DNA from: Channallabes apus
Lineage: Eukaryota; Chordata; Actinopteri; Siluriformes; Clariidae
NCBI GenBank assembly: GCA_030522415.1
Contig: CM060108.1
Location: 40,632,756-40,696,755, forward strand
Length of the DNA: 64,000 bases
Reading direction: 5' to 3'
Part shown: piece after piece, positions 7,322-64,000 of the stretch
Layout: every line of letters begins with the position of its first letter
How positions within the stretch are numbered: the first letter of the stretch is position 1
Program-made: the position numbers and the translations under genes
Notes under the pieces: generated by a model
The model's database searches: none
What the model was told of the DNA's origin: nothing
What the model saw: only the letters and a program-made list of their open reading frames with translations

Positions 7322-7573
7322 CAAGTCCTAAACCTGTGGTGAATATAAAGCCTCATACACAGGTGTTCAGAGGAGAGAGAGTGACTTTCAGGTGTGACAT
7401 ACAGACAGAAGGAGTCACTGAGTGGACATACAGCTGGTATAGAGACAATAGCCGAGTCAACCCAGGCATCAACTTAGTTAGAGACACTGACGGGGGTAAA
7501 TACACCTGCAGAGGGACGAGGAGAGACTCTCAGCTCTCACAGATCAGTGCTCCTGTTACACTCTCTGTATCAG
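7322..7573 (+). CDS. Ig-like domain exon 1 (A-type)
   Basis: 252-base exon, 84 codons, phase 1 at both ends. Acceptor 'cccttccag' (AG at 7320-7321), donor gtcagt at 7574. It encodes SPKPVV..., the B-strand VTFRCD cysteine, the YSWYRD tryptophan and the F-strand DGGKYTC cysteine, ending in VTLSVS. The C'-to-E region is about six residues shorter than in the related exon at 27391. It differs from exon 22274-22525 by about four residues (N/T, V/D, N/D, G/D) and two silent changes. Confidence 0.8.
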
Positions 7574-27388: not shown

Positions 27389-27660
27389 AGGGAGTCCTAA
27401 ACCTGTGGTGATTATAAATCCTCATACACATGTGTACAGAGGAGAGACAGTGACTTTCAGGTGTGACAGGACAGGAGGAGACACTGAGTGGACATACAGC
27501 TGGTATAGGAATAATAACACACAGCTACACGACACAACACAGGAGTTCAACATCAGCTCAGTTAGAGACACTGACGGGGGTAAATACACCTGCAGAGGGA
27601 CGAGAAGAAGTGACGCTCAGAACTCACAGTTCAGTCATCCTGTTACACTCTCTGTATCAG

Positions 27661-41929: not shown

Positions 41930-43140
41930 TAAGCAAGAGTCTTCTTTTTTGTGAATTGAACCTCTTTGGTTTTGACTTCAGCAAAATCCTTAACTATATC
42001 CTTCATGTTCAGGGATCTTCTGATTCTTTTTTCATTAGAAATCTTTGCCATTCAGTTGTTCTTGAGACATTGTGGACCGCAGGTAAGATTGAATTTGCTG
42101 TGAACTGAAGAAAGTGGAGAAGTCTTCTCTCTCCTGAGAGTGATAGACAATGTCAACAGTAAACACAAGTCAATGCTTAAATTGCCATAAAGGTCCAAGA
42201 GATTCTCCTTGTAGCTGTAATCTAACACTTCTGCAGGTATAGATACTGTATGTGATCTAGAAAAACATGAACAGCTGCCCTCACTTCAAGAATCATGTCC
42301 TGACTGTCAGTGTCTCCCAGCATCTGCTCCAGATTCTTACATCATGACCGAAATCCACTACTGCAAAGTGAAGAGGTGCTTCCCCTTTCAAAGAGCTTAC
42401 AACAGATACAGCACACAGAATCACTACTGACTGAATAAACTAACCGATTTCTCAGCATTTTCTCCTCTTTTTTTAATTTTAACAGTCCACAGTGAAACGA
42501 CGAGGAATTTTGTCAGTTTTGAGGAAAATCTGAATCCATTATTTGAACTGGTCCCCTTTTGACAATGCTGCATCTTTGTTGGTCAGAGATGCAGCAGACT
42601 CAGGCCAAAGTGCTGAGTCATCAGAAAGCATGATTTCGCTTATCAGTAGATTATGGGGTGGGGCTGGGTATCAGAGACACGGCACTCATCTACGCTGCCG
42701 GCAAAAGTAGAGACGGGTGCGGCCAGAGCTTGTTCAGTTGGTGGCTTAGCTGGGTCTTCCTCCTCTTCAGATATTTCCTATTGATTTTTAGGTGAAATAA
42801 ATGTTGTACGCTTTGGCAAGCTTTCAGTGTTTGATTTCTTTTGTTTTCTTTCCTTTGGATCGCCATTGGGTAAGCACGCTTTATGGTTGATTCTTTCTAT
42901 ATGTCTTGGCCATAAATGATGTCAAAAGCAATCATTAAATCAGTTAACCACTTGTGGCCAGTAAGAGGCCTCCACGTCTGCCGGGTCCCATGCAACTGCG
43001 TGCTTTGCCTGGTGGATAAACACGCTACTGGTGAGGTTTAACACTCCCCTACAGGCTGGGCATTCAGCTGGTACACAGATGTTCTCTACAAAGACAGGCA
43101 GGGTTCCATCAGGTACAGCAGATAAATAAGCCGGTAGCAT
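41930..43140 (-). pseudogene. decayed hAT / ZMYM-type (DUF4371-like) gene remnant
   Basis: On the minus strand about 43140-42940 reads as protein-like (ENICVPAECPACRGVLNLTS, DPADVEASYWPQVVN). About 42075-41930 reads LRSTMSQEQLNG and, one frame over, ISNEKRIRRSLNMKDIVKDF before a stop. That ending resembles the C-terminus of hAT-derived ZMYM1/DUF4371 proteins, from memory. Several stops and shifts interrupt it. A dead element, not a host gene. Confidence 0.45.
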
Positions 43141-43311: not shown

Positions 43312-43578
43312 ATGAATCTCCTTCAGTGTCTCTAAACATCAGTCCCAGCAGAACTCAACACTTTACTGCTGACTCTCTCTCACTGAGCTGTGAGGACCAG
43401 AGAGACTCTACTGGATGGACAGTGAGAGGACACACACACAGTGAGACACTGTACAATTGTTCATCAGTTTCAGGATCTACATGTAACATCAGCTCCCTCT
43501 CTACATCACACACTGGAGTTTACTGGTGTCAGTCTGAATCTGGAGGACGCAGTAATTCTCTTTACATCACAGTGCATG
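43312..43578 (+). CDS. Ig-like domain exon (FcR-like D1)
   Basis: 267-base exon, phase 1 both ends. Acceptor 'ttgtgtttcag' (AG 43310-43311), donor gtgagt at 43579. Encodes DESPSVSLNISPSRTQ, LSLSCEDQ, STGWTVRG, SSVSGSTCNISSLS and TGVYWCQS, ending LYITVHG. It has four cysteines (two extra besides the core pair) and NIS/NCS glycosylation sites. It matches the recurring fish FcR-like membrane-distal domain and differs from the A and B types at 7-31 kb. Confidence 0.82.
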
Positions 43579-44172: not shown

Positions 44173-47100
44173 TCACAATGCTGTATTAACCAGTGCACAT
44201 GTGTGCACAGATGTTAACTATACAAATGACGCACACACACTGAGCATGGGAAATGATTACCCACAATCCCCCACCGCATGAGTGAGGAGAATCATTGGCT
44301 CAGTTGTGATCACGTGACACTCAACAGTCAAAGCGCATACATACTAATCAAAACTATAACTAAAACTAACTAACTAACTAAAAAAACTAACTATACTAAA
44401 ACTATCAAATTAAAATTAATAAAAAATTTTTTGCTTGTCTTGCAAAACACTCGCAAACTAATTTACTCAGCAATCCAAGGATTTACTGTATTGTAAAGAA
44501 ACATATGGTATGGCATATGGTTCCAGACCCATTGTTCTGTGTCACATAACTTAATTTATGATCATAGACAACACATACACACAACAAACTGTGTGTGTGT
44601 GTTTCTTGTAGCTGTCATAATTATTTACATACCATATCATTACATGACAGACGCTCTCATCCAGAGCGACATAAAAGCTGCTTACTGTAAGTCTCTGTCA
44701 TTAATATTATCCAGTCTGCATAGACATGACAAAATAAACTAGTAACAGACAGATGTATTTAATCCATGATTTAACTTTCACCTGGGCAAACTTAGATGCC
44801 TTTAATATATTCAATTCAATTTTATTTGTATAGCACTTTTAACAATTGACATTGTCTCAAAACAGCTTTACATATATAAAGAATATACAGTAACCTAACA
44901 AACTCACACTGCCACATCTCAGCACATGGACATGATAGATAAATAAATAAATAAATAAATTTGGTATCAAAATGGAGCTTTTTTTGAACTAGAAATCTAA
45001 AAAAATATTTATAACAAAAATCATCCAAAATGTGAATTAATAACACATTTGACGGGTAATTTTTACTGCTCATCTGTCAATTCTCCCAAAAACTTCTTTT
45101 GGTTATAGATATGGCAGTGTGGTTGTACTCTAACGTCACATACTACAGATCAGTCGAGGTCTTTATGCTACAATTATATTTGTATTTGAGCCACTCTATG
45201 CTTTCAATGTTCTCTTCCCTACAGATGGTGATGTGATCCTGGAGAGTCCTGTCCATCCTGTAACTGAGGGAAATCCTCTGACTTTACGCTGTTTATATCG
45301 CAACACAAACATCTCAGACTCTGGTGCTGATTTCTATAAAGATGATTCAGTTCTCCAGAAGCAGACTACAGGAGAGATGACCATCAGTAGTGTCTCAAAG
45401 TCAGATGAAGGTTTCTACCGCTGTATACACCCAGAGAGAGGAGAGTCACGGAAAAGCTGGCTTTCAGTCAGAGGTGAGGAAACCACGTCTACAGTACTTA
45501 CTTGTGTTAGATTTGTAACAATGTGATTTCTAAATTCCGTGTTTAAATGCATATCTGGGTTCTTTTCTTTTTCTAGTTTCAGCTTTTGGATTCATTTATG
45601 TAATTATAGCACTGAGTTTGGCCTTCGCACTGTTTTTCTTAATGATCTTACTGATCGTGCTGGTGCGCTCCAAGAAGAAAAAAGGTTTGATAATCAGCTC
45701 TCTATGTCTATAACATGTTTAATATGTTCAAAGACAATTGTGCACTTGCTATTTTTTTTTTTTAAACAAGGTCATGTTTCACCAAATATATTACTGCTTT
45801 ACTCTGTTGAGAAGGTGTAGAATATCAGACTCCTTCTGCAGTAATTCAGGACACCAGTCAGCCTGCAGGTCAGTCTGTGTTAACAATAAACACACCATGT
45901 ATTTTTGACATTAGTTATCTTTCTCCTCTAAAGTCTTTTTGTTCCTATTTAAAAGATGGTGAGAATGTCTATGAAAATACTGATACCAAGACCACAGGTA
46001 AAGTTTAGATAAATATTTTAACATTTTTCACCATGCCATTATTTATTTAACATATACAGTATGAAGCCTATAAAAAAATCAAGGCAAAAAAAATAATCAT
46101 GTGGCCAATACTAAGTACAGTACGTCATGTTTCGATAGCTTGTAGATCAAACTTTAGCAGCAATAACTTGAAATAATCTTTTCCTGTATGATTTTACCTT
46201 TTTGGGAAGATTGGCAACCATTTTGAATGCCTTCCACTTGGGAATAATCTTTCTCACTGTCAAAATAGTTTGGAAATGTTTTTTTTTTAAACTATTTTCA
46301 GATTGATGCGAAGCAATTCTTGGCTTCTGTAAGACCGTTGTTTGTCTTTCACTCTTGGCATTGTGTTAGCACACACACCTGAATGCACTAGAACAGCAAG
46401 CTGGCAAAACATCTGCTTGTATAGAGGTTCCACAGCTACTGATGATTAGCAACACCTGGCTGAAACTTACCATCTTAAATCCTGTAGATGCAGCAGATGC
46501 TACTTAGTATAGGCATACTTTTTTAATTATTATTATTATTTGTATACTTTATATATATTAAAAATCTCAGATTCTGGGAAACTGTTATACAGATAGCTAA
46601 GGGAGCAAAACAGTGTGATTAAATCAGTAAACACCTAGAGGTATTACTGTGCAATAGGCATCTTTACCAGCTGGTGCAATTAGAACTTGATGCGTGAACC
46701 AGTGAGAAACAGGTGCAGATGATGATACAGTAGATGATCGGGCCAGTGATTAGTGTGTGTGTGTGTATATATATATATGTCACAGTAAAGCACTTGTTTC
46801 CATTTCTTTAATTTAATCTACATCATTTAGTTAAATTTTGTATGAAGAAATGAGAGTTGGCTCAACAAATAAGGTGTGTCTATATCCTTTTATAGATGCT
46901 GCCGCTGAACCAGGAAATGTGACTTATGCTGAAATTGAACTAAAAAAAATAAAGAAACCAAAGAAAAAGCCAGGTGGGATTAATTCTTTCAATTTAATAA
47001 CAGAATTGCAACCTTTTTGGATTTCATATTACCCTTTTGTGTATTTATCTTAAAATGACTGATTTGAATAATTCAGTAATAAAAATGATAAGATAATATA

Positions 47101-47943
47101 TGTACATGCTGTAGTTATGGACATTTATGTGGTGTATCTTAGTGAATGCTAACTGACTGTCTGTTGCCCACTAGGAAAGAGCAGTAAGGGAGATGAGACT
47201 GTGTACTCAGAACTAAAGCAGGACACAGATAAAGGTAAGATGAGCTAAAATTGTACACACAATCTCTCCAGTGAACACTATTGCTTAAACAAAGAGAGAG
47301 ATTTACCCTACAGTTACTAAATGTGGCAGTTTCTCTAATAGTGATGTACAGATGAAGTCACATCAATACACATCACTCAGAGAACCAGCAAGGATTAATG
47401 GAAATCAGAACTGGTAGATAAGCACCATGAATCCAAGGGATTTAGGAATTTATTTGGTAGTTTTTTAATAATCTCTTTTACTTTCATCAAATTTTTTCTA
47501 TTATTCAAACCAAATACTGTAGATATGGCTTGATGGTGTGGTTTAGGGTTTGAGTGATTGGCCACAGCTAAATTTCCACCACATCCAATTGGTAATAGTG
47601 TTTATTTGTTTTTATATGATCAAATAACATCAATATCTCCTCCTTGGTTTTCCCTACAATGAAGGTAGTTTAATTAAATAATACAAAAAGGCATTGTTGA
47701 TGCACTGATAAACAGTTTTGAGATCATCTAATATCTTTGAAAGTTTGTACCAAAGATTTACTGTATTGACAACTTTGACCGTTCTGTAGCATAATGTGAT
47801 TTTCTGTAAGCCATTTTAACAGACACTCTGAGAAGGTTTTGTTTCACCACCATGCCTATGATTCCATCACAACTGTGCTGATATTTATCACAACAGCACT
47901 CCCTGTCATTTGATATTGCTTAATTATCACATTCCTGCTGTTT

Positions 47944-47974
<31 letters not shown>

Positions 47975-50900
47975 GTCTCAAACACACACACGCGCGCGTG
48001 CACACACACACACACACACACACACACTACTTTGACTTGATACAGGTTTATTTTGAGTAACATTCATACTGAGATATGTGTATTTACCTTGAATTTGTCT
48101 CTTAAACACAACCTTTTATCTTTGAGATGCTTTAAATGTGTTCGATATTCACTGTGTATTTACACATTCTTATGGCAGTAAATACAAATCACAAAAAAAA
48201 CCTGGAAATGCTTTTTCACATTTTTAAATGTAACACAGAAATAAAATATTTCTTAAATAAAGATAGAGAAAAGTACAGAAACACTTGTTTATTTAAAATG
48301 AAAAAGAATACATTTATTGCATAATCAATGTGCGTCTCGAATGAGCAACCCAAAAGTGATGGTGCACAAGGAACATGCATGAGGGGGATATGAGAAAGAA
48401 ATGTGAAAATGGTCAAAATTGCAAATTCAATTAGTCTCTCATTGTCCCTGATTGTCTCTGGTGGGTAAGTCGACGGCGACAAGAAAAAACTCCTTGAAAT
48501 ATTATAAATCGAGTTGCATTTCAGTGAGTAAAATAAGTATTTGATCCCCTACAAACCAACAATAATTCTGCCTCCCACAGACTGGTGATGTGCTCATGTG
48601 TAACACAGATTAATTTAAGAAGCTGCTCCTAACAACTCATTATGTATATAAAAGCCACCTGTCCACAGAATCTCTTCTATTTCATTTGTAGCTTGTCGCC
48701 AGAAAAACATTTGTTTCCATTTCTCTAATTTAATCTACATTATTTAATTTAATGACATTGTTGTATAAAGAAATGAGAGGCGGCTCAAGATGTTTGTACA
48801 ACTGTAACGGGTTTGACCCTATGTGCACGGGCGACACAATGAAACACGGACACGAGGCGAGGTCTTACAGGAAAATGGGTAATTTATTTAGAAAAATGGG
48901 GGGAAGGAAATGGTTAAAGGCGGGAGGACGGAAAGAAAGGGAAGGGAAGGATGATGCACATGCAGGTCTGGTTGACAGTGCCCCGCTGGCATGCGGGCAC
49001 AGGCTGGTGAGTGGTGGTGGCGGCAGGCAGAGTGGCAACTTTGGAGCACGCAGAGGTAGCGCTCCTACACGCTCCCATGATGGCGACCTCTCCCACTGAA
49101 CGCGAGCCAAGACCGGCTCCTCACAAGTGAGCGAGGAGCAATAGTAATTTGGGCGCACGCCCATCACAGGTGCACGCTGTGAAAAAAACTGTGTAGTTAG
49201 GTTGTACAGCATTGGTGGTTAAGGGAATGAAGGTACTTACGATTCTGTAACCTTTTATAGATGCTGTTGCTGGACCGAGTGATGTGACTTATGCTGAAAT
49301 TGTACTAAAAAAACAAAAGAAACCAAAGAAAAAGCCAGGTAGGAAATCTTTTTTTCAATTTACTAACAGAATTGCAACATTTTTATATTTCATATTACCC
49401 ATTTGTGTATTTATCTTTAAATAACTGTAATTTATCTTAGTCAATGCTTAATCAGTAACTGTTGCCCACTAGGAAAGAGCAGTAAGGGAGATGAGACTGT
49501 GTACTCAGAACTGAAGCAGGACACAGATAAAGGTAAGATGAGCTAAAATCCTTTTTTTTTTTACTTAAACAAAACTAAAGAAACCAAAGAAAAATGAAGG
49601 TATTATTATTAATTATTATTATACAGACGTTAATAGAGGTAAATGTACTATAGTTCTGGACATTTAAGTGGTAAGCAGAATGGTGTGTGTTTCTTAGTGA
49701 ATGCTAATTCAGTGACTGTTACTCACTAGGAAAGAGAAATGAGGGAGATGATAATTTGTACTCAGAAGTGAAGAAGAACCCAAATAAAGGTAAGAAGAGC
49801 TAAAAGTGTACACACAATCTCTCTACACAACAGTATTGTTTTGACAAAAAGAAATATTTACACTTTATCTACCATATCCATTAATATGGCTGATGTTCTT
49901 ACAGAGGCTTACTTGTGATCATCAGAAACAGTAGTTTGTACTACTCATTATCATTTTGATTCATACACATTCGCATTTCATATAAACTTAAATAAATCTT
50001 TTGATTGTGTGAAGCTGCTTTGCGACAATGTCAATTGTTAAAAGCGCTATACAAATAAAATTGAATTGAATCAAATAGTTTGTACTGTATATTTAGAGTG
50101 TAATGTGATTTGTGCCAAAATGGACTGAACAACAATAAAAGAATCAACAAGAAATACATTGACAATGGTGGCACAGTGGTGTAGTAGGTAGCATTTACAT
50201 CTCCAGGGTTGCGGGGTCGATTACGGGCTCGGGTCTATGTGCATTGAGCTTACCCTTTGGTGGTTTTTCTCTGGTTACTCCACTATGTGTGTGTGCTTGT
50301 GCCCTGTGATTGATTGGTACCCTGTCCAGGGTGTATCCTTCCTGGGACCCTGAGTCCTCTAATCTACAGGCCTCCTGTGACCCTGTACTGGATAAGCCGT
50401 ATAGATAATCAGTCAGTAAATAAACTGAAAGTGAATTAAAAATTGCAAACCATAGAAACTGATATAAACTTAATATTAACTTGTACTGAGAATGTGTTGG
50501 AGATTTAAACATCTGGCCAATAAAAATGCAGTCCTGTAACACCCATCCTACAGCAGCTGGCCAATGAGGAAGGAGCTCTGTAACACGGGGGTGTCAGAAA
50601 TGCAAACGTACAAATCAGCAACATAACTGAAGTGTTGAGGAAGAAACGTGCGAAACTCAGCAGCAAAACATTTAACATTTTTGCATTTAATTTTAGATTT
50701 CTCTTTTTTTTTTTTTTGGAGGGGGGGGGTGGTCTTGCAATTACTTTTTATTGACTTTCAATTTAACTGATAGTTGATATTAAAATATCAATAGTTGAAA
50801 ATAAAAATAAGAAAATAAAGCTATAAATCTGTAATCTTTTATACAGTAGATGCTGTCCCTGGACCTGTACCGGATGCTCCTCCTGTACCAAGTGATGTGA

Positions 50901-53900
50901 CTTGTGTTAAACCTGAACTGATAAAGCTAAAGGATCCAAAGGAAAATCAAGGTGGGATTTTTTTTTTCAGGATTTTTTTCTGAACCCCTTAAACCATTTT
51001 TCATATGTTCTAATCTTAACACATAGTGTTCTGTAACTGATCAGAATCATTCAGTAACTAAAATGACAATGATAGAAGTTAATAGAGGTAAATGTAGTGT
51101 AGTTCTGGAAGTTTAAGTGGTAAACAGAATGGCGTGTGTTTCTTAGTGGATGTTAATTCAATAACTGTTACTCACTAGGAAAGAGCAGTGAGGGAGACGG
51201 CAATTTGTACTCAGAAGTGAAGAAGAACACAGATAAAGGTAAGATGCACTAAAAGTGAACACAATCTCTCTACACAACTATTGTTTTAACAAACAGAGAT
51301 ATTTACACTGTATTTACTACAGTCAGTAATATGTCTGATGTTCTTAAAGAGAGTTACAAATGTGTTGTTTTTACTGCATTATCCAGTGTATAATTGTGAT
51401 CAGCAGAAATAGCCGTGTGTACTGTGTGTATTCAGTATAGAATATTTGTTCCAAAAATGATTGAACAAAAATAAAAGAAGCAACAAAAAATACATTGACA
51501 ATGGTGGCGCAGTGGTGTAGTAGTTAGCACAGGCCTTGCACCTCCAGTGTTGTGGGTTCGATTCCCAGCTCAGGTCTGTGTGCGTGAAGCTTACGATTTG
51601 CTTGGTGCATTTTCTCTGGGGACTTTAGTTTCCTACCAAAGGCAAAAGGCGTGTGCTCTGCGCTGGACTGGCATCCTGTCCAGGGTTTACAGTATTCTTT
51701 CTGGTGCCCTGAGTCTCCTGGGCTCCAGCCCTCCTCTGACCCTGTACAGGATAAGCAGTATAGATAATTAGTGAGTGAGTAAATAAATTGAAAGTGAATA
51801 AATTGCAAACGAAAAAGCTGAAATTAAACTTGATATTAACTTGTAAGTTTAATTTCAAACAAAGCTTAATTTAGACATTTACTTTGTCCTGAATGTAGTA
51901 AAGATTTAAGCTGCTGGCCAATGAGGATGCAGTTCTGTAATTCCTATCATATAGCAACTGGCCAATGAGGAAGCAGCTCTGTAACACCCACCCACACGGT
52001 ATATTTGTGTCAGAAATGCAAAGGTACAAATCAGAAGGAAAACTGAATAATTGAGGAAGGAACGTGAAAAAAACTGAGAAGCAAAACATTTAACATTTTT
52101 GCATTTCATTTTACTTTTTTTTTGCAATTGCTTTTTATTCACCTTTAATTTAACATTAGTTGATATTCAAATATAAATAAAGTGAGAAATAAAGCTATAA
52201 ATCTGTAATCTTTCATAGATGTTGTCCCTGGACCAAGTGATGTGACTTGTGTTAAACCTGAACTGATAAAACTAACGGATCCAAAGGAAAATCCAGGTGG
52301 GATTCTTTTTATTTTCCATTTCATTATTATTTTTAATGACTATTTCTGGATTTCATTTAAAGAACCTTAACCATTTTTGCCCATTACTAATCTTAACACA
52401 TATAGTGTTCTGTAACTGATCAGAAACATTCAGTAACTAAAATGAAAATGATAGAAGTTAATAGAGGTAAATGTACTGTAGTTCTGGAAGTTTAAGTGAT
52501 AAACAAAATGGTGTGTGTTTCTTAGTGAATGTTAATTCAGTAACTGTTACTCACTAGGAAAGAGCAGTGAGGGAGATGGCAATTTGTACTCAGAAGTGAA
52601 GAAGAAAACAGATAAAGGTAAGATGCACCAAAATTGTACACGCAATCTCTCTACACAACTAGAGGTGCATGCCAAAAACTCAAGTCAGAAAAAAATGTCG
52701 CTCCGCCCCCTCCATCCTCGCGCAGGTTTCACACGCTTGAGCTGTTATCACGCATCTGCCCATCAAAGACAAAGCATGTCAGTGGTATGAAAGTATTTTA
52801 AAGATGAGGACACTGAAGTTGAAATATCCAACATTTCAGCATTGCCCAAACCGCAGCGGTGTTAGAACAAGCACAGCCACACAGCAACTAGAGACTTATC
52901 TAGCTGAACTACCCATTCCCAGAAGCAACAATCCCTTTGACTACTGGCGCTCGAACAAAGACCGCTTTCCATTGCTTGCAGGGGTTGCAAGCAGGTATTT
53001 ATCTGCCCCAAGCACCAGGAATAAACTAGAAGGAATGTACAAAAATAAAAGAATCAACAAAAATACATTGATAATGGTGGCACAGTGGTGTAGTAGTTAG
53101 CACTGTGGCCTTACACCTCCAGAGTTGTGGGTTTGATTCCCAGCTTGCGTCTACGTGCATACAGCATAGAATGTGGTGGAGATTTAAACAGCTGGCCAAT
53201 AAGAATGCAGTCCTGTAAGTCCCATCCGACAGCAGCTGGCCAATGAGGAAGCAGCTCTGTAACACACACCCATACGGTATAATTGTGTCAGAAATGCAAA
53301 AGTAAAAAAAAACTGAAACATTTAGGAAGAAACCTAGAAAACTCAGCTGTAAAGCATTATTATTAACATAATTTATTATATTTTGTTTATCTTTAATTTA
53401 ATATCAACTAAAATTCAAATGTGAATAATGAGAATTTATTCTGTCAAAGACTGAATTAATTGCCATTTCAAAGTGTGTGTTTATGCTTGTGCCCTCTGAT
53501 GGACTAGCATCCTGTCCAGGGTGTATTCTTCCTGGAGTCCTGAGTCCCCTGAGCTAAAACCCTCCTGTGATGCTTACAGGATAAGCAGTATAGATAATTA
53601 GAAATCTGGTCAGCTAGCCAATGAGAAAGCAGCTCTGTAACACCCACCCACATGGTATATTTATGTCAGAAATGCAAACGTAAAAATCAACAGCAAAACT
53701 GAACAATTGAGGAAGAAACATGGGGAAAAATTGTTTCACCCAGATGAGGATGGGTTCCCTGTTGAGTCTGGTTCCTCTCAAGGTTTCTTCCTATTACCAT
53801 CTCAGGGAGTTTTTCCTTGCCACTGTCGCCCTCGGCTTGCTCACCAGGGACTATCTGACCATTTTGATTCATACACATTCACATTCCATACAGACTTAGA

Positions 53901-56900
53901 TAATTCCTTTGATTGTGTAAAGCTGCATTGCGACAATGACAACTGTTAAAAGCGCTATACAAATAAAATTGAATTGAATTGAAAACTCAGGGCCAAAACA
54001 TTTATCATTTTTGCATTTAATTTATTTATTTATTTCTTTTTGGGAGGGGGGGGGATTCTTGCAATTACTTTTTATTTACCATCAGTTGATATTCAAATAT
54101 GAATATTGAAAAATTAAGAAAATAAAACTATACATCTGTAATATTTTATAGAGGCTGTCCCTGGACCTCCTCCTTTACCAAGTGATTTGACTTGTGTTAA
54201 ACCTGAACTGATAAAGCTAAAGGATCCAAAGAAAAATCAAGGTGGGATTTTTTTTGTTTCATTATTATTGTTTTTTATGTCTATTTCTAAATTTCGTTTA
54301 ACTCCATAAACATATTTTTTTTATTACTAATCTTAACACAGTAGTTTGTACTGTATAGTCAGTATAGAATGTGATTTGTGCCAAAAAGAACTGAACAAAA
54401 ATAAAAGAAGCAACAAAAAATACATTGGCAATGATGTCACAGTGGTGTAGTAGTTAGCGCTGTTGCTTTACACCTCCAGGGTTGAGGGTTCGATTCCTGG
54501 CTCGGGTCTGTGTGCGTGGAGCTTACACTTTGGTGGGGTTTTTTTTAACATGTGAACATCAGAAACAGTAGGCAGTCAGGTTTGTAGACCTTCTTGCTCG
54601 CACTCGCCTTTTCAGTGCCCACAAATTTTCTATGGGATTGAGATCAGGGCTTTGTGATGCCACTCCAATACCTTGACTTTGTTGTCCTTAAGCCACTTTG
54701 TAACTAATTTGGAGGTATGCTTGCGGTCATTGTGCATTTGCAAGAACCATTTGCACCAAAGCGTTAACTTCCTGGCTGATGTCTTCAGATGTTGCTTTAA
54801 TATATCCACATCGTTTTCTTTTCTCATAATGCCACCTATTTTGTGAAGTGCACCAGTCCTTTCTGCAGCAAAGCAGCCACACAACATTATACTACTGTAC
54901 CACCTCCACACTTCAAAGTTGTGTGAGACTTCAAAGCTTCGCCCTTTTACCCCCGCATATACTGTTTATCATTATGGCCGAACAGTTACATTTTTGTGTC
55001 GTCAGACCACAGGACATGTATCCAAGATTTTTGTCCCCATGTGCAGTTGCAAACTGTAGTCTGCCTTTTTTATGGTGTTTCTGAAGTAATGTCTCTCTCC
55101 TCCCAGAGTAACTTTTGAGATCATGGTGGTACAGGGCTAATTTTTACTGTGGATAATAACACCAGTTTCAGCCAGCATCTTCACAAGGTCTTTTGCTGTT
55201 GTCCTGGGGTTGATTTGCACATTTTGTCCTCTCTGGGACTCCGTCCCCTTCATGAGCGGTATGCTGTTTGTACATTCCCATGTTTTTTATACTTGCATAT
55301 TATTGTCTGAATGGATGAACGTGGACCTTCAGGCATCTGGAAATTGCTCCTAAGGAGTCACACTTGTGTAGGTCCACAATTCTTTTCCTGATGTCTTTGG
55401 TTGATTTCTCTTGATTTTTCTCCCTAATGTCAAAGAAAGGGGTCTGTGTTTGAGATGTCCCTTTACTGACTATGCATCCACAGGTGTGCCATCAATTAAT
55501 TCAAATGGAATCAATTAACCTATTAGAAGCTTCTTAAGCTCAGAATGGAATCATCTGGAGTTTTCTTTTTGTTTGAAGACTCAATAAACTTAGTGTATGT
55601 ATACTTCTGACTTGAAAGTGAAGCATGGCAATGAAAATAAAAAACATAATTAATGAAATTCATATAGCATAAAAAAATCCCCCAAAAAGTATTTTAATAT
55701 TTATTGATCTGAAACAGAAAAAGTTTACTCTGATTTAATGTTTGACTTAATGTTTTAATGTTTGAAAAAAGGTCTTTGTGTTTTTTCTGGTGTATGTAAA
55801 TATCTGGTTTCAACTGTATTTGTGTCAGAAATGTTTTCAAAATCAGTTGCAAAACTGAAACATTGAGGAAGAAACATGTAAAAATGTGTAAAAACATTTT
55901 GCATTTAATTTGCAATTATTTTTATTCACTTTTAACATCAGCTAAAATTCAAATATGAATAGTGAGAAAAATATATAAATATGTAATCTTTTCTAGGTGT
56001 TGCTCCTGGACCAAGTGATGCGACTTGTGTTAAACCTGAAGTGATGAAGAAACCAAAGAAAAATCAAGGTGGGAAAAAAAAAAAATTTAGGACAATTTCT
56101 GAATGTCATTTAACCCCTTAAACCATTTTCTTTCCCAATTACTTATTTTAATGCATAGTGTTTGGTAACTGATTTAAGTTAATAGAGTTAAATATACTGT
56201 AGTAATGGAAGTTAAGACATTTCTAGAAATTATGATTTTTAATTATGAATTTAGAAACTATGTTAAAGTTATGAGTAGTTATTTTGCTCTTCCAATACAT
56301 ATCCTTCCATGAATGGCAGGATTGACTTTAAGATGGTGACCGGCGACCTACATGTACAGTTAGTGAAATTAACAGTGGTGAATTTTTTAAAATACCTTTT
56401 AGAACTATGGAACCAAAATGTGAGGATGATAAACCTGTTATTAATCTCATGAATTTCTTTATATTTTCACTTTAGAATATCAGCTCCATTAATGCCTGGG
56501 TTCCAGGGTTAAGTTCCAAATAGCATAAAATGGAAAGATATTGAGCTATGTAGGATGTACAATCCCTTTCACACAAGACTTAGTGCTCTTGTTCAGGGGT
56601 TAGAGAGGGAGTTGGGATTCAGCCTTATGTTAGCTTGTGCTTATTAGTTTTGTAGCTCATGCTATGAACAAAAAACAGGTATGGTTTAGAGGAAGTTTGA
56701 AATGATTTTAAACCAATTATTAAGGAGACAAAGTGTTGTTTAAGATGTGTTTTCTTGCTAAAAGAGCTTACATGACTGATTTTGGTTTTGATTGTGGGTT
56801 TTGACAGGCAGCTGCCGTCTCTTCAGTACTGCAGACTGTACTGACCTACATTAACGCAGGCTGGTGACTGACAGTGTAGTTACTGTAATGATCGTTAGAA

Positions 56901-57193
56901 CACCTGTGATGCAAAATGATGCATATAGTTAAACATTCTAGTGCTGTTACTATCTATTATCATCACTCAGAATTCCACTCATCCAGTCAGATTATTCTGT
57001 CAGAACGAACTGTTGTATAATCTTTCATAGATGATTCATCATGTTGAATCTTTCATAGATGCTGCCCCTGGACCAAGAAATGTGCCTAAAACTGAACTGA
57101 AAAAACTAAATCCAGGTGATATAATACGGCCCAAATTTTATAATTTAAGTTTTTCAACCCTTTTATTTTTTGTTGCCATGTATTTGTGTTAAA

Positions 57194-57261
<68 letters not shown>

Positions 57262-60200
57262 TTTTTTTTTTTTCCTCTCCATAAAATACTACTGCAACAC
57301 GTTACCACTGGGCCCCACCCTGCTGGTGCCGAGCCCTGACCTGCCATGCTTCTTTGCACAGGTGGAAGGAAACTAAGATAATTTCCGAGTACACTTCACC
57401 CCAAAGTCTGGTGGAATTTGATCAATGAGAAGACCATAGTTACAGGCTATCTTCAAGAGTTGGGCATAGTTCTTTGTACTTGTCCACAGATCAAATCACA
57501 TATGGAAGCTTTTATAGATGTGTATTGATGTTTAGATGCGATGTCAGTGCCGTGTGTCTCCACCGAAATCTGTGCACGCATGTAGCATGTCAGTCTCATC
57601 TTTTGACCTACACAGCAATAGTTGATAAAGTAGGAAGGCATAAGAGAGCATTGCTCTTGACATTTTTTCTTCTCTTATGTTTAACAGTGGTTCACAAACC
57701 AAGTAGGTGCATACTGCCACCTGCTGTATCAGAGAGTGTAACTACCGAAATGTACCCGAGTACGGAGAACAAAAATAATGTGAAAACTGACCAGCAGGTG
57801 AGCGCTGAGGGGAAGCAATCATTTCTGGGCATGGTACAAATCAATCGTGCCTAATGTGAAAACACCCTAAAAACATTTACTTTGCTACCATACTTCAGTA
57901 CCGTTTTCACCTATTTGTACTTTATTTAAGTAGTTTTTATTAGTGGGTACTTTTCACTTGTACTTCACTACATCCTTTCACAAATGTGTAATTTTTATGT
58001 CATTACATTTCTGTATGGCATTGCATTAGATCATCACAGTTAGATGTGTAGCATTTAAAGCAGTAATATCACTATCTGATGTAATTGCATGATTTTCATT
58101 TTCTCCATGAAATGCTCAGTCATATACTGTAGCAGGTCTTTGAAATCAGAAATGGATATGGTTTCAGCCAGTAACTAAATAGCTACTTTACAGTCTGGAA
58201 GCAGAGAGAGATCGAGAGTTTTTTAAATACTTTTTTATGATGACCCAAGGCTTATTTTCATATATTTTAAGATTCATAACGCGTCACATGAAATATTTCA
58301 AGCGTTTATGTTTAAATTTCAATGATCACCACTTACAGCTCATGAAAATCAAAGAAATATTTACAATACCGAAATACTTAAAAATTGTGTTAATTCATGC
58401 ACCCAATACTTGGTTGAGGCTCCAGATTTCTGCATCAAGGCGATCAGACTATGGCACTGCTGAGGTGTTATTGAAGACTGGGATGTTTGATAGCAACCTT
58501 CAGCTCATCTGTACTATTTGGGGCAGGTGTTTCACATCTTCCTCTTCACAGTGACCCATAGATTGTCCCATAGAACCGTAGACTTGATTCTGAGCTTGGA
58601 CAATACGAGTGTACAGTATGCAGGGGCCTTCATACATTACACATTATATTGTGTCTTTTTGTTGGATTCTCTCTTAATCAAGGTTATTATCCCCTGAACA
58701 TTCTCGTGAATATAAATACTGATGCACTGTATTGTGTCTGATTAAACTCAATGCAGATATTGTAATTTTCTCTGTCCTCCTACTAACCTGAGGCATGCAG
58801 TGTATGGTTAGTGTTAGACAAAATGGCTGAAAATGCACGGTGGGAGCATTGTGTGAGTGAATGTGCCAACCTTAATGCCCTTATTTTAAAAATCTTAAGC
58901 CTTTTTGAAAAGTTGTCAGCTTTGCCACATATATGTTAGAAATGAAAATCATATGGTAAATTCGTCATTAGACTTTATTATATTAAAATATTTTATTTTA
59001 AATATTTTATTAAAATATTTTTGTAGTGCATTGTATTTTACCAAATAATATCTCTTTCAATTATATGTTTAATCATCATTATATTCCTTAAAATGTATGA
59101 ACATGTAATGAGGCGATAAAAACCGATAACAACGTCACAAATGTGTGGTACAAACTCGATAATGACTTGATAACAGCACATCATGTAAATCAATCGAATC
59201 ATTTTCGATAAGTTATAAATGTTTCAATACGTTATATATTTTATAATGGTATTAGTTTTTGTTTCAATAAATATTCTATTTTTAATATCAGCAGCGTAAT
59301 ATTTCCACAGCAGCAGCGACAGGTATCCGAGGTGCTTATGTTACCATACCGGAAAAGTTAAGTTGTTCAGTTTGTGGTAGATCTGATTTATTCAAACACA
59401 ATAATAAAGTTTTATATCCTCAGGAGGGTCATTACATTGTTTTAGCGATAATTTCACGGAAGCGAGTTCAGAACTAATCTAAAGCACTGTCACACTAAAA
59501 AAACATCCGAAAAGTTCAGAAGCTTCAAATAGAATGAACAAAATAATAAATTTTCTTAAAACGTTATAAAATTAAGTGGAGATTTAGTGACTCCCCTTAG
59601 AAACTCTGTAGTAGGTTTTCTCAGTTGAATATGAAAAAAATAAAATACCACTGATGATCAACGCGGGAATGAACGGCGCATTGTCCAAGTGCAAGTTGAT
59701 CTTGGAGCTAAACTATTTGCTTTGGGTGAAAGCGCCATCTAGCGATCATTGTGTGTCAGCAACAGCTTCCCATTCAAAACAATAGGCAGTCAAAATGACC
59801 GTGAACCGCGTTATAAGTAGGTCACACTGGCCCTGCACTTCTAGTGTTAAGCATCGATACCATGGCGTTACAGAGGCATTATTTCCTTCCTCTTAATGAC
59901 TTGAACAAACACGACAGAATTCACATTGAGCCCAAAGGAGGCTGTAAGAAGTCGTTACAGACCTCTACCGAGCTTCCCAGAGGTTGTATGAAATTTGCAT
60001 ACTAAGGATGACTCGTTTCCACACAAAAGAATGGAGATTAATCATTTAAGGTTAGTGACTACCTGCTAATCCAAACAGATTATCTGTTACCCTCATCACC
60101 TGTTTGCAAATCCAGCTCTGATTTATCCCTGTGTGAAAGTCATTTGATGTGAGTAGTTTAGCACACACATGTACAACTTTTGAGATACGGAACATTTTCA

Positions 60201-60313
60201 CTGTAAATAAATGGGAGTAATTTTTCTGTACCCAACTAGGAAAGAGCAGTGACGGAGCTGGTGACATGTTCTCAGAACTGAAGCGGGCCATGGAGAAAAG
60301 TAAGATGAACTAA
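43312..60313 (+). CDS. Fc-receptor-like inhibitory receptor with expanded ITIM tail, partial
   Basis: Candidate gene of 18 exons: two Ig domains (43312-43578, 45225-45473), a membrane segment (45577-45684), two short tail exons and 13 exons of an A/B array ending at 60240-60313. All junctions are phase 1. Similar fish proteins are annotated as low-affinity IgG Fc receptor-like (family recollection). ITIM tyrosines, once phosphorylated, recruit SHP-type phosphatases and dampen leukocyte activation. Splicing everything would give roughly 170 extracellular and over 300 tail residues with nine tail tyrosines: two VTYAEI, two TVYSEL, three NLYSEV, one YENT and one EYQTP. The signal-peptide exon is missing. 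Downstream array exons may be skipped or dead. Confidence 0.6.
43649..44488. mobile_element. Tc1/mariner-type MITE ('accttggattgc' ends)
   Basis: Inverted ends (left 'aaaaccttggattgcaagca', right 'gcaatccaaggatttactg') with TA at 43647-43648 and 44489-44490. Same family as the element at 61569. It contains a long (AC)n tract at 44119-44170. No transposase. Confidence 0.65.
44817..44880. repeat. fragment of the 'tttatttgtatagcgc' repeat
   Basis: 'caattttatttgtatagcac' and 'aacaattgacattgt' match the repeat at 2401. Confidence 0.65.
45225..45473 (+). CDS. Ig-like domain exon (FcR-like D2, membrane-proximal)
   Basis: 249-base exon, phase 1 both ends. Acceptor 'ttccctacag' ending 45224, donor gtgagg at 45474. 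Encodes DGDVILESPVHPVTEGNPL, LTLRCLY, SGADFYKDDS, SKSDEGFYRC and ends KSWLSVRG. Two core cysteines; the core tryptophan is replaced by the DFYKD pattern usual in this domain. One N-glycosylation site (NIS). Confidence 0.82.
45577..45684 (+). CDS. transmembrane exon
   Basis: 108-base exon, phase 1 both ends, acceptor 'ctttttctag', donor gtttga (weak) at 45685. Encodes AFGFIYVIIALSLAFALFFL and a further hydrophobic stretch, then the stop-transfer RSKKKK. No charged residue in the span, so no adaptor pairing is expected. A second AG six bases on (45581-45582) would remove two codons in frame, a possible tandem acceptor. Confidence 0.78.
45821..45868 (+). CDS. tail exon C1 (EYQTP)
   Basis: 48-base exon, phase 1 both ends, acceptor 'ggtgtag', donor gtcagt. 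Encodes EYQTPSAVIQDTSQPA; one tyrosine in EYQTPS, not an ITIM. Confidence 0.65.
45956..45997 (+). CDS. tail exon C2 (VYENT)
   Basis: 42-base exon, phase 1 both ends, acceptor 'tatttaaaag', donor gtaaag. Encodes DGENVYENTDTKTT. YEN fits the YxN pattern bound by Grb2-type SH2 domains (family knowledge). Confidence 0.68.
46073..46510. repeat. transposon-derived fragment in the tail intron
   Basis: Phrases such as 'tttagcagcaataactt' and 'ctttcactcttggcattgtg' match a dispersed fish DNA-element type that I recognise only generally. No open frame. Confidence 0.4.
46750..46780. repeat. (GT)n(AT)n microsatellite
   Basis: Short compound tract upstream of exon A1. Confidence 0.8.
46896..46973 (+). 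CDS. tail exon A1, ITIM VTYAEI
   Basis: 78-base exon, phase 1 both ends, acceptor 'ccttttatag', donor gtggga. Encodes DAAAEPGNVTYAEIEL and then a lysine/proline-rich end (KKIKKPKKKP). VTYAEI is a canonical ITIM (V-x-Y-x-x-I). Confidence 0.75.
47175..47234 (+). CDS. tail exon B1, TVYSEL
   Basis: 60-base exon, phase 1 both ends, acceptor 'gcccactag', donor gtaaga. Encodes GKSSKGDETVYSELKQDTDK. TVYSEL is ITIM/ITSM-like (T-x-Y-x-x-L). Reading through the donor meets an in-frame stop after four codons (GKMS), so intron retention here would end the protein. Confidence 0.75.
47235..47940. other. intron, nothing further seen
   Basis: AT-rich sequence between B1 and the CT/CA microsatellite; no exon of either array type found. 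Confidence 0.45.
47943..48027. repeat. (CT)n(CA)n compound microsatellite
   Basis: CT repeats followed by CA/CG repeats. Confidence 0.9.
48515..48700. mobile_element. Tc1-like 5' end fragment
   Basis: 'gtaaaataagtatttgatcc', 'ctgcctcccacagactgg' and 'aaaagccacctgtccacaga' are the terminal and leader words of a common fish Tc1 family. The rest is absent. Confidence 0.55.
48803..49182 (-). mobile_element. solo LTR remnant, relative of 9820-10340
   Basis: Begins 'tgtaacgggtttgaccctat' and ends 'catcacaggtgcacgctgtg', the reverse complement of the LTR ends at 9820-10340, but shorter by about 140 bases. It splits the intron region just upstream of exon A2; the corresponding A1 region (about 46845-46890) is uninterrupted. 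Open frames on both strands are not genes. Confidence 0.7.
49261..49338 (+). CDS. tail exon A2, ITIM VTYAEI
   Basis: 78-base exon, phase 1 both ends, acceptor 'ccttttatag', donor gtagga. Encodes DAVAGPSDVTYAEIVL and a lysine-rich end. A clear duplicate of A1, including upstream intron ('gtttccatttctctaattta' at 48714). Confidence 0.75.
49473..49532 (+). CDS. tail exon B2, TVYSEL
   Basis: 60-base exon, phase 1 both ends, donor gtaaga. Encodes the same 20 residues as B1; the nucleotide sequence is almost identical, pointing to recent duplication of the A-B pair. In-frame stop just past the donor as in B1. Confidence 0.75.
49572..49598 (+). pseudogene. relic 3' end of an A exon
   Basis: 'actaaagaaaccaaagaaaa' followed by a gtatta donor-like end matches the lysine-rich end of A exons, but no 5' half or acceptor exists. 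It sits exactly where an A exon should precede B3. Confidence 0.5.
49730..49789 (+). CDS. tail exon B3, NLYSEV
   Basis: 60-base exon, phase 1 both ends, acceptor 'ctcactag', donor gtaaga. Encodes GKRNEGDDNLYSEVKKNPNK. The -2 residue is Asn, so NLYSEV is not a strict ITIM though YxxV is kept. Confidence 0.7.
49958..50070. repeat. reversed 'tttatttgtatagcgc' repeat
   Basis: Ends 'aaagcgctatacaaataaaa', the reverse complement of the 2401 repeat start. Confidence 0.7.
50166..50410 (+). mobile_element. SINE copy 1 of the tail-exon tandem unit
   Basis: 'gtggcacagtggtgtagtag' head, weakened B-box, 'cctgtccagggtgtatcctt' body. It is preceded by 'atacattgacaatgg', the same flank as the copies at 51500, 53077 and 54432, so it was duplicated with the exons and not inserted four times. 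Confidence 0.7.
50850..50951 (+). CDS. tail exon A3, VTCVKPEL (Tyr lost)
   Basis: 102-base exon, phase 1 both ends, acceptor 'atacagtag', donor gtggga. It has a proline-rich start longer than in A1 (VPGPVPDAPPVPSD), then VTCVKPEL where A1 has VTYAEIEL: the tyrosine codon tat is tgt. No ITIM. Confidence 0.65.
51179..51238 (+). CDS. tail exon B4, NLYSEV
   Basis: 60-base exon, phase 1 both ends, donor gtaaga. Encodes GKSSEGDGNLYSEVKKNTDK. In-frame stop five codons into the intron. Confidence 0.68.
51500..51775 (+). mobile_element. SINE copy 2 of the tandem unit
   Basis: Same flank 'atacattgacaatggtggc', A-box-like head and GGTTCGATTCC B-box; the body ends 'ctgtacaggataagcagtat'. Confidence 0.7.
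52219..52296 (+). CDS. tail exon A4, VTCVKPEL (Tyr lost)
   Basis: 78-base exon, phase 1 both ends, acceptor 'tctttcatag', donor gtggga. Encodes DVVPGPSDVTCVKPELIKL. Cysteine in place of the ITIM tyrosine, as in A3. Confidence 0.65.
52558..52617 (+). CDS. tail exon B5, NLYSEV
   Basis: 60-base exon, phase 1 both ends, donor gtaaga. Encodes GKSSEGDGNLYSEVKKKTDK. Unlike the other B copies, the read-through frame here stays open for about 50 codons into the hAT fragment. Confidence 0.68.
52640..53045 (+). pseudogene. hAT transposase C-terminal (dimerisation) fragment
   Basis: The frame at 52804 gives ETYLAELPIPRSNNPFDYWR, then RFPLLAGVASRYLSAPST, matching the hATC pattern (YW, RFP L, A..YL..P). 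The following SERxFS part is absent. It replaces part of the repeated unit after exon B5. Confidence 0.65.
53077..53165 (+). mobile_element. SINE copy 3 of the tandem unit (truncated)
   Basis: 'ataatggtggcacagtggtg' with head and B-box-like GGTTTGATTCCC; the body resumes at about 53488-53600 after intervening unit sequence. Confidence 0.6.
53735..53985. repeat. reversed 'tttatttgtatagcgc' repeat, longer copy
   Basis: 'cacccagatgaggatgggtt' through 'aaagcgctatacaaataaaa' is the reverse complement of 2401-2630. Confidence 0.75.
54152..54241 (+). CDS. tail exon A5, LTCVKPEL (Tyr lost)
   Basis: 90-base exon, phase 1 both ends, acceptor 'attttatag', donor gtggga. Proline-rich start (EAVPGPPPLPSD), then LTCVKPELIKL. 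Its partner B exon is missing: the following intron jumps from 'aatcttaacaca' to the SINE-side flank. Confidence 0.6.
54432..54545 (+). mobile_element. SINE copy 4 of the tandem unit (truncated)
   Basis: Head and GGTTCGATTCC B-box present; the tail is replaced by Tc1 sequence. Confidence 0.6.
54577..55816 (-). mobile_element. Tdr2/Sleeping-Beauty-like Tc1 fragment
   Basis: The right end has two direct motifs ('gtatgtaaatatctggtttc' at the tip and 'gtatgtatacttctgacttg' about 200 bases inside), an IR/DR arrangement, with TA at 55817-55818. A minus-strand transposase remnant lies at 54630-54911. The left end is lost. Confidence 0.7.
54630..54911 (-). pseudogene. Tc1-like transposase fragment
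   Basis: Contains SIMLCGCFAAERTGALHKIG, VDILKQHLKTS and a degraded second-Asp motif (QMHNDRKHTSKLVTKWLKDN, where D is H). The catalytic ends are missing or mutated. Confidence 0.7.
55997..56068 (+). CDS. tail exon A6, ATCVKPEV (Tyr lost)
   Basis: 72-base exon, phase 1 both ends, acceptor 'tcttttctag', donor gtggga. Encodes GVAPGPSDATCVKPEV and KKPKKNQ. Cysteine replaces tyrosine. Confidence 0.58.
56069..57058. other. intron, nothing further seen
   Basis: No array exon found between A6 and A7. A duplicate acceptor-like 'tctttcatagatg' occurs at 57021-57033, 30 bases before the A7 acceptor. Confidence 0.45.
57059..57115 (+). CDS. tail exon A7, motif lost
   Basis: 57-base exon, phase 1 both ends, acceptor 'tctttcatag', donor gtgata. 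Encodes DAAPGPRNVPKTELKKLNP: no tyrosine or cysteine where the ITIM stood. The lysine-rich end is shortened. Confidence 0.5.
57196..57272. repeat. (TA)n then (T)n
   Basis: About 30 TA units followed by a run of T. Confidence 0.9.
58230..58570 (-). mobile_element. diverged Tc1-like 3' end, relative of element B
   Basis: On the minus strand it reads '...aaccaagtattgggtgcatg ... catgagctgtaagtgg ... cttgaaatatttcatgtg', the same order of words as the 3' end of the element at 16408-17779. The open frame on the + strand (58237) is a shadow. Confidence 0.5.
58571..60239. other. no gene recognised
   Basis: AT-rich to about 59700, then mixed composition. No A or B exon seen before 60240. Confidence 0.4.
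60240..60313 (+). CDS. tail exon B6, DMFSEL (Tyr to Phe), possible last exon
   Basis: Acceptor 'cccaactag' ending 60239. Encodes GKSSDGAGDMFSELKRAMEK: the tyrosine codon tac is ttc. A gtaaga still follows 60299 in phase 1, but the base before it is A, not G, and reading on gives SKMN then a stop at 60311-60313. I take it as the terminal exon. It might instead splice further. Confidence 0.5.
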
Positions 60314-60872: not shown

Positions 60873-61568
60873 GTCACATACACAACCATACACATTATGA
60901 AATGCTTACAGAACTATTATATTTTAACTGTATTATAGTCCAAAAGACATTTTTAATTTTGAAGACAGAATCAAAATGTACTGTAATTGGTGACCTGGAT
61001 TATAACCTTGCACTTGATTGTGCTGTGTAAATAATGTGTTTCGGTTTGGCTAAAAGAAATACCCACAAATTTATTTCATAAAAGCACTGAGTAATAGCTA
61101 GAAGAAGATAATAACTAAATATATATACTGTATATTTTTTTGCATATTACCATGAAGAGAGTCAAATGTCTTCACTCAAGAAATGATGAAACAGCTGAAG
61201 AACATGGTAAATACAACTGTTTTGGAGCAGTTTGTATTTTCTAAAAAGGTTGTGTTTTGCTTAAGGCAAAGTTAAGTATTGTACAATCGTTTAGGGATGA
61301 TCAAAGAGCAAAAGGAAGGTTAAAACAATTATTTAAAAAATATTATTTCTATGTCTCAGAATGAGCTTTAGCTTTATCCAAGTTAAGTGCTCAGATTTTA
61401 TTCCCCGCATCAGAATAATATACAAGTTTGTTGGCAGTGAGATGTTCACTAGTATATTTTAATACTGAAAAAAAAAGTATTTTTGAATGTTTATTTTTTA
61501 TTTGTGCATTAGATTATTCAAGTTAAGATTAATTAATGTGTTTTAATTTTTTTATTTATTTTATACTA
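60873..61568. other. no gene recognised
   Basis: AT-rich. A short frame from 61152 with a GTAAAT donor-like site at 61207 has no support as an exon. Confidence 0.4.
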
Positions 61569-63599: not shown

Positions 63600-63960
63600 C
63601 AAAAGGTATCCGGGTACCACTCATCTCCACTACAAATAGGAAAAAGAGGCTACAATTTGCATGAGCTCACCAAAATTGGACAGTTGAAGACCCCTCAGTG
63701 CCATTGTTTAAATGCCATGGGCTACCTGAGCATTGTTTCTGACCATGTCCATGCCTTTATGACCACCATGTACCCATCCACTGATGGCTACTTCCAGCAG
63801 GATAATGCACCATGTCACAAAGCTCGAATCATTTCAAATTGGTTTCTTGAACATGACAATGAGTTCACTGTACTAAAATGGCCCCCACAAATCTCAACCC
63901 AATAGAGCTTCTTTGGGATGTGGTGGAACGGGAGCTTCATGCCCATTTTAAGTGAAAATG
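63600..63960 (+). pseudogene. Tc1-like transposase C-terminal fragment
   Basis: Encodes SIVSDHVHAFMTTMYPSTDG, then YFQQDNAPCHKARIISNWFL with the second catalytic Asp, and VLKWPPQ. A small deletion near 63887 removes part of the SPDLNP motif and shifts the frame before the Glu (IELLWDVVE in another frame). The N-terminal half is absent. Confidence 0.7.
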
Positions 63961-64000
63961 TAATTCAAGCATTTAAAATTCAATGCAAAAATATTTAAAG

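Follow-up and report, generated by a model that had tools for sequence, protein, structure and literature searches.

What signalling tail does a catfish immunoglobulin (Ig)-superfamily receptor gene encode when small exons 3' of its membrane exon are repeated over and over, and how did such an array come about? We addressed this in Channallabes apus, in a 64 kb stretch of CM060108.1 (positions 40632756-40696755, on the chromosome labelled C5; the whole stretch is hereafter the window), of which 42.5-64 kb was scanned for symmetric phase-1 exons. A first-pass annotation had claimed 13 exons after the membrane exon, with canonical splice sites and phase 1 on both sides, and all of them were present in the scan: seven of one kind (A) and six of another (B), every one with an AG acceptor, a GT donor, a length divisible by three, phase 1/1 and no stop. 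The parts of the gene, in window positions, are listed below; P-numbers denote fish proteins from the survey described further on.

27393-27659, + strand: Ig-like domain exon SPKPVVII... (tblastn limits; probable ectodomain part; P0002 and P0121 of C. magur have the same order)
30252-30521, + strand: Ig-like domain exon KPKPELTSD... (tblastn limits; probable ectodomain part)
43312-43578, + strand: Ig-like domain exon ESPSVSLNIS...
45225-45473, + strand: membrane-proximal Ig-like domain exon GDVILESPVH...
45577-45684, + strand: transmembrane (TM) exon, 86% identical to C. magur P0121
45815-45868, + strand: tail exon C1 (VEYQTPSAVIQDTSQPA); one of three possible acceptors, chosen because it yields KKKKGVEYQTP, as in P0145
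45956-45997, + strand: tail exon C2 (GENVYENTDTKTT), with YEN, presumably a GRB2-type site
46896-46973, + strand: A1, VTYAEI, strict ITIM
47175-47234, + strand: B1, TVYSEL
49261-49338, + strand: A2, VTYAEI, strict ITIM
49473-49532, + strand: B2, TVYSEL
49569-49602, + strand: A-exon relic comprising the 3' half, between B2 and B3 (E = 2.4e-4)
49730-49789, + strand: B3, NLYSEV
50850-50951, + strand: A3, VTCVKP, without tyrosine, proline-rich; a second possible acceptor would start it at 50847
51179-51238, + strand: B4, NLYSEV
52219-52296, + strand: A4, VTCVKP, without tyrosine
52558-52617, + strand: B5, NLYSEV
54152-54241, + strand: A5, LTCVKP, without tyrosine, PPPLP
55997-56068, + strand: A6, ATCVKP, without tyrosine
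57059-57115, + strand: A7, shortened, VPKTEL, without tyrosine
60240-60299, + strand: B6, DMFSEL, tyrosine replaced by phenylalanine
61158-61186, + strand: terminal coding exon, SQMSSLKK-stop, after AG; residues as at the end of P0145

The motif counts first reported (two VTYAEI, two TVYSEL, three NLYSEV) were reproduced, and the described alternation of A and B exons held in part: the order is A1 B1 A2 B2 B3 A3 B4 A4 B5 A5 A6 A7 B6, broken at B2-B3 and at A5-A6-A7. As literally written, the earlier A motif matches 0/7 A exons; read directly with three residues before E, it fits A1 and A3-A6. Tyrosine is kept in seven of the 13 modules (A1, A2 and B1-B5) and absent from the other six, namely A3-A6, which have cysteine in a (V/L/A)TCVKP core, A7 and B6. 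A strict ITIM, (S/I/V/L)xYxx(I/V/L), is found after the TM exon in two modules rather than in each of the 13, both times as VTYAEI, and this pattern alone is common by chance; NLYSEV and TVYSEL fit YxxPhi and not the strict form. Calling this an 'inhibitory' tail with an 'ITIM-exon array' is overstated, given 2/13 strict motifs and 6/13 modules without tyrosine. The tail after the membrane exon has about 345 residues and nine tyrosines, seven of them inside the array, with tyrosine-to-tyrosine gaps from A1 on of 26, 20, 26, 20, 54 and 46 residues. Divergence between copies ranges widely: B1 and B2 differ at 1/60 bases and encode an identical peptide, and B3 and B6 differ at 20/60.

As a chance control, symmetric B-type exons were counted at 46.0-61.0 kb: there were six on the + strand and none on the - strand, with a shuffle mean of 0.05 (n = 20). 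One A pattern, which matches A3-A6 only and misses VTYAEI, gave four and none in the same interval (shuffle mean 0.05, n = 20). The strict ITIM pattern alone was not above chance at 46.0-61.0 kb (11 on +, 12 on -; shuffle mean 5.85, maximum 11), and we dropped strict-ITIM enrichment as evidence, since shuffles and the other strand give comparable counts. A profile search with the A and B copies over both strands of the whole window returned as full copies the same 7 A and 6 B. Its further A matches were fragments, at 50822-50865 (E = 3.1e-5, the 5' side of A3), at the relic and at 50100-50145 (E = 0.025), plus weaker ones; further B copies were limited to a single extra match with an E of 8 in the window.

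The 3' limit first given for the array, 60313, did not stand: this position is 14 bases beyond the donor of B6, close to the stop reached by reading through that intron, and coding continues to 61158-61186. The exon there encodes the same residues as the C-terminus (...DMFSELKRAMEKKSQMSSLKK) of P0145, a 1155-residue protein of Clarias gariepinus deposited as sialoadhesin-like, and each of the 13 array exons joins it in frame. P0145 also matches the window in the same order through A5 (28/30 residues identical), A6 (22/24), A7 (18/19), B6 (20/20) and the terminal exon (9/9), so another gene model contains recognisable counterparts of the distal exons. Under intron retention, five of the six B exons (B1-B4 and B6) meet a stop four residues past the donor (GKMS, GKMS, GKKS, GKMH and SKMN, respectively), and the B5 read-through runs 57 residues. 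A C-terminus made in this way is a possibility, and we favour the separate terminal exon because P0145 and both long sister arrays (see below) have it. The terminal exon (GDFTETxDVTYAQV) and SSNTIYSQV-type middle exons of other catfish were also considered as candidates and rejected; in tblastn against the window (E <= 1) they matched only A2, through an SSNTIYSQV-type query.

Joined as a single query, four window Ig exons matched Pfam Ig_3 (6.6e-34), and the best chain among solved structures was FCRL5 (9loc, E = 3.5e-37), with FcgRI at 8.9e-14. An ectodomain relative, P0086, bears the name leukocyte immune-type receptor 3 precursor (E = 2.7e-88; 69%, with 60% of the query covered). Judged by these similarities, the ectodomain is FCRL-like and near this LITR-named catfish protein. 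With AG/GT borders, the TM exon and the two Ig exons nearest to it are of phase 1; a phase-1 rule for domain exons of the Fc receptor/FCRL family is given in PMC2413239. Direct reading of the transmembrane stretch revealed no charge of the type found in activating receptors. A signal peptide was sought in the window with three queries and a pattern, none of which had a convincing match, and the 5' end of the gene probably lies upstream of it. Four further Ig-like exons are present upstream on the + strand (7324-7572, 8459-8728, 22276-22524 and 23403-23672); they may be part of the same long receptor or of a neighbour, and similarity to the known TM exon gave no convincing second one in the window. 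A decayed Ig exon fragment with a stop (EV-stop-HSPTGWAFSWYTDVLYKD), matching Hemibagrus P0006, lies at 43033-43095.

Self-comparison of the window shows that exons were copied together with their flanking introns (for example, 50078-51280 against 51415-52661, 73% over 1326), and copies of an interspersed repeat sit between the array units. Elsewhere in the window, 34.9-39.8 kb holds large repeated segments with short identical repeats about 2.1 kb apart (at 34982 and 37090; at 35343, 37451 and 39695), and 54560-55600 and 63600-64000 hold transposon-like remains, which we take to resemble a Tc1-type transposon. The central claim of the first-pass annotation, namely that an Ig-superfamily receptor had a module of its tail amplified at the level of exons, is upheld by the duplicated segments, by similar tails in Clarias and by three sister arrays.

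These sister arrays came from a search of the genome (1.16 Gb, 93 contigs) with an A2-B2 query (E <= 0.001, 29 candidates scored). The query gave 11 matches, all on the window's chromosome, where three more A/B arrays are found:

C5 39484934-39486128: short array, 2A+2B
C5 40323528-40343977: 18-module array, 9A+9B
C5 40563235-40586426: 22-module array, 11A+11B

The 13-, 18- and 22-module arrays represent three genes within about 370 kb. Open modules number 13/13 in the window, 17/18 and 19/22 in the long sister arrays and 3/4 in the short one, that is, 5/57 are broken with limits set by one script, and the one scored broken in the 18-module array is open if another donor is used. Runs of N (756 and 245) in stretches near that array could hide modules. 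Both long sister arrays finish with DMFSEL followed by a homologous terminal exon in the acceptor context ccatgaag, differing from that of the window at 2/29 bases. Ig, TM and C1 exons precede the array in the 18-module gene. In the 22-module gene (C5:40561038-40587292), the TM, C1 and terminal exons are present; a membrane-proximal Ig exon was not found in the 21 kb upstream, and this gene may be rearranged. The two long sister arrays share collinear blocks of 87-94% identity, so they probably stem from a recent gene duplication.

To place the array among other fish receptors, we gathered 165 proteins (the best 120 of 992 matches, plus 36/36 and 42/42 from further searches). This is a survey of tails and not a census: a crude rule placed a TM segment in 125 of them and left a tail of at least 40 residues in 103. 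Counted by a simple pattern in these 103 tails, A-B pairs numbered one in 65, none in 31, two in six and four in one. Tyrosine-less A modules (A') occur in at least four of the 165 proteins listed, all from Clarias (P0001, P0113, P0121 and P0145), and NLYSEV accompanies them in three of these four. P0145, whose tail is the nearest among those annotated, has eight array modules (hand-cut) versus 13 in the window. The tail of C. magur P0001 has 7A+6B, and its A' types alternate between serine and cysteine, which suggests further amplification in the C. magur lineage; one C. magur B module is without tyrosine. Outside Clarias, Pangasianodon hypophthalmus P0149 carries four near-identical NMLYSEVV modules, an independent amplification of another ITIM-type module. 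There are four A-type modules in the tail of Salminus P0158, ten YxxPhi motifs in that of Serrasalmus P0039 and, by eye, three pairs in that of Umbra P0127; P0039, P0161, P0165 and P0158, which we take to be characiform receptors, have 8-10 YxxPhi motifs each. The statement that relatives usually carry few such motifs is correct for most of these proteins, and fails for those four and for P0149. Repeated ITIM-type modules in other fish indicate that amplification of tail modules is recurrent in fish, and make the window tail an extreme form of a tail type already known. Among the proteins compared, array length and tyrosine loss are its distinctive features. Among the matches listed by a full-text literature search, no paper described arrays of ITIM exons for Clarias or LITR. 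In one further protein, Hemibagrus guttatus P0123, the gene model fuses PF01498 and PF13358, presumably transposase domains, to an Ig-TM-ITIM tail, and this is probably a prediction artefact.

The order of events was approached with unrooted FastTree module trees of 30 A and 27 B modules, cut by hand (A7 omitted). Seventeen A' modules split from 13 other A modules with a local support of 0.996, and ten NLYSEV-type modules (B') from 17 other B modules with 0.806, in trees that are weak given peptides of 18-34 residues; both groups mix window and Clarias sequences. As the tyrosine-less A modules form one group, tyrosine was probably lost once, before most of the copying, and both groupings agree with a single ancestral change followed by amplification. 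We propose that a small symmetric pair of tail exons, A (VTYAEI) and B (TVYSEL), would have been copied in tandem with its introns; that in one copy the A tyrosine would have become cysteine and B would have become NLYSEV; and that the altered A'B' unit may then have been the source of most later copies.

The evidence that the array has been kept by selection is mixed. It bears on the view that repeat-driven segmental duplication produced the distal part largely as a weakly constrained by-product and that transcripts use mainly the proximal A and B exons; the array would then be open because it is young and phase-symmetric. This view draws on the six tyrosine-free modules, the truncated A relic, the lack of any B after A5 or A6, the 5/57 broken modules, the interspersed-repeat copies between units and a dN/dS of about 1 in two of three array-to-array comparisons. 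Those comparisons used 10, 7 and 13 exons, omitting gapped or out-of-block ones, and were preferred to MAFFT flank alignments, which misalign at intervening repeats. Between the window and the 22-module array (nine modules plus terminal exon), 34/597 exon and 897/6566 non-exon positions changed (Fisher p = 1.7e-9), with a dN/dS of 0.38. Between the window and the 18-module array (six modules plus terminal exon), the counts were 22/408 and 747/5521 (p = 3.5e-7), with a dN/dS of 0.95. The 18- and 22-module arrays gave a dN/dS of 1.02 and no significant difference between exon and non-exon change (p = 0.066). In both comparisons that involve the window, exons show about 2.4-fold less change than the DNA around them, which speaks against the by-product view, as do the 13/13 open exons of the window, the near-identity of A5-A7, B6 and the terminal exon in C. 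gariepinus and the almost invariant NLYSEVK core of the B' modules. In 21 such modules, 2/147 cells of this core changed versus 52/252 at other positions, for a core drawn after seeing the columns and with cells of related copies that are not independent. The count omitted two 18-residue B' and three broken B modules, and in the C. magur NLSSV module the gap position was set manually. The own-genome B' set was chosen by NLYSEV; the other nine of 25 open B modules are all of TVYSEL or DMFSEL types, so no module with a lost core was dropped among the open ones. Across the four arrays, tyrosine is retained in 22/25 open B modules (the three exceptions being terminal DMFSEL) and in 7/27 open A modules. 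In a neutral-decay simulation, illustrative given its guessed rates, an outcome with nine open distal exons was improbable for 0.10 per site (2.8e-3) and not as improbable for 0.05 (5.2e-2). When copies within the window are compared with one another, pN/pS often reaches 1 or more, based on a very small number of synonymous sites. Gaps were multiples of three in 6/6 cases in exons versus 3/18 in flanks; we do not claim the corresponding Fisher value (6e-4), because the six gaps are about two events counted repeatedly. On balance, we regard the by-product view as unlikely.

The reading we favour, and consider reasonably probable on sequence grounds, is that the window holds the 3' part of an FCRL/LITR-type catfish receptor gene, in which an A/B exon pair was copied in tandem and an altered A'B' unit was amplified, with arrays of 13, 18 and 22 modules. 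The tail layout is best read as two proximal tandem ITIM-like pairs followed by distal single YSEV sites between tyrosine-free spacers. Most array exons would be spliced into a single tail, in which A1-B1 and A2-B2, with tyrosines 26 residues apart, could act as tandem docking pairs for SHP-1/SHP-2; by analogy, this spacing would fit a use of the two phosphatases like that of channel catfish IpLITR 1.1b. VTYAEI has alanine at pY+1, a residue type described as favouring SHP1 (PMC8631942). The distal B' modules would provide weaker, single YSEV docking points, 46-54 residues apart on tyrosine-free spacers, and may in this way raise the valency and reach of an inhibitory receptor.

An alternative that we also rate as unlikely treats the array as a bank of cassette exons, from which any subset could be spliced because every exon is phase 1/1, yielding receptors with graded numbers of docking sites. 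All 13 exons are indeed symmetric and in frame with the terminal exon, the deposited Clarias tails vary in module order and number, and skipping of an ITIM exon alters ITIM number in primate LILRB1 (PMC12827074). However, plain tandem duplication of a phase-1 exon also gives such symmetry, and the deposited Clarias proteins are different genes and gene models, whose differences need not be due to splicing. Less plausible still is a role of the distal YxxPhi sites in endocytosis, or with an activating adaptor, instead of inhibition. NLYSEV and TVYSEL do fit that motif, and the related IpLITR 1.1b is stimulatory as well as inhibitory (PMC4810170), but the proximal VTYAEI motifs are strict ITIMs and the TM stretch is free of an activating-type charge. 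Finally, while such repeats can be misassembled, a false array made by collapse or expansion of repeated reads is highly improbable, as divergence between copies reaches a third of the exon bases (B3/B6), the units have distinct introns, gene models from two Clarias species show tails of this kind and the two other long arrays have locations of their own.

A further-reaching reading, which we consider less probable than not, is that at least three clustered catfish receptor genes carry fast-turning banks of 13-22 symmetric signalling exons. There, a tandem ITIM pair would have been remade into a tyrosine-free A' (conserved VTCVKPEL core) and a single NLYSEV, and copy number and splicing might adjust how many phosphatase docking sites there are and how far apart they lie. 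If true, these banks would mirror, on the side of the tail, the diversification usual for ectodomains. How strongly an inhibitory receptor acts is generally taken to depend on the number and spacing of its ITIMs, and natural series that vary mainly in these properties are, to our knowledge, rare. Related genes of a single genome here carry 13-, 18- and 22-module tails, with shorter ones in other species, and the tyrosine-free versions of the same module would be built-in controls, so that the question of ITIM dose becomes testable with natural sequences. They also suggest that the signalling tail, besides the ectodomain, can diversify through exon copying.

Among known systems, the closest are the Clarias models P0145, P0113, P0001 and P0121, which share with the window gene the membrane-proximal Ig, TM and C1 exons, the A/B modules and tyrosine-less A'. 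These FCRL5-like and sialoadhesin-like models differ from it in the number and order of modules, and P0145 also has A7, B6 and the terminal exon as in the window. Mammalian FCRL5 gave the best match to the Ig domains among solved structures (9loc); its tail has few motifs and is not known to have an A/B exon array. CEACAM1 has a single motif pair, within about one exon, and is not known to have undergone tandem amplification. An ITIM/ITIM or ITIM/ITSM pair in its cytoplasmic exon works like one A-B pair (PMC2832619). The IpLITRs of channel catfish have a related ectodomain (P0086), and IpLITR 1.1b is described as having ITIM tyrosines 22 residues apart that recruit SHP-1/SHP-2 (PMC4810170), an ITIM region that inhibits NK killing and is also needed for inhibition of phagocytosis (PMC4810170, PMC7404264), and stimulatory plus inhibitory actions (PMC4810170). 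IpLITR 1.1b differs in having six tail tyrosines and, within the available part of PMC4810170, no repeated exon array is described. The tails of P0149, P0158, P0039 and P0127 are likewise built of tandem small tyrosine modules, but these are other modules, in about 3-5 copies by eye, and they retain their tyrosines.
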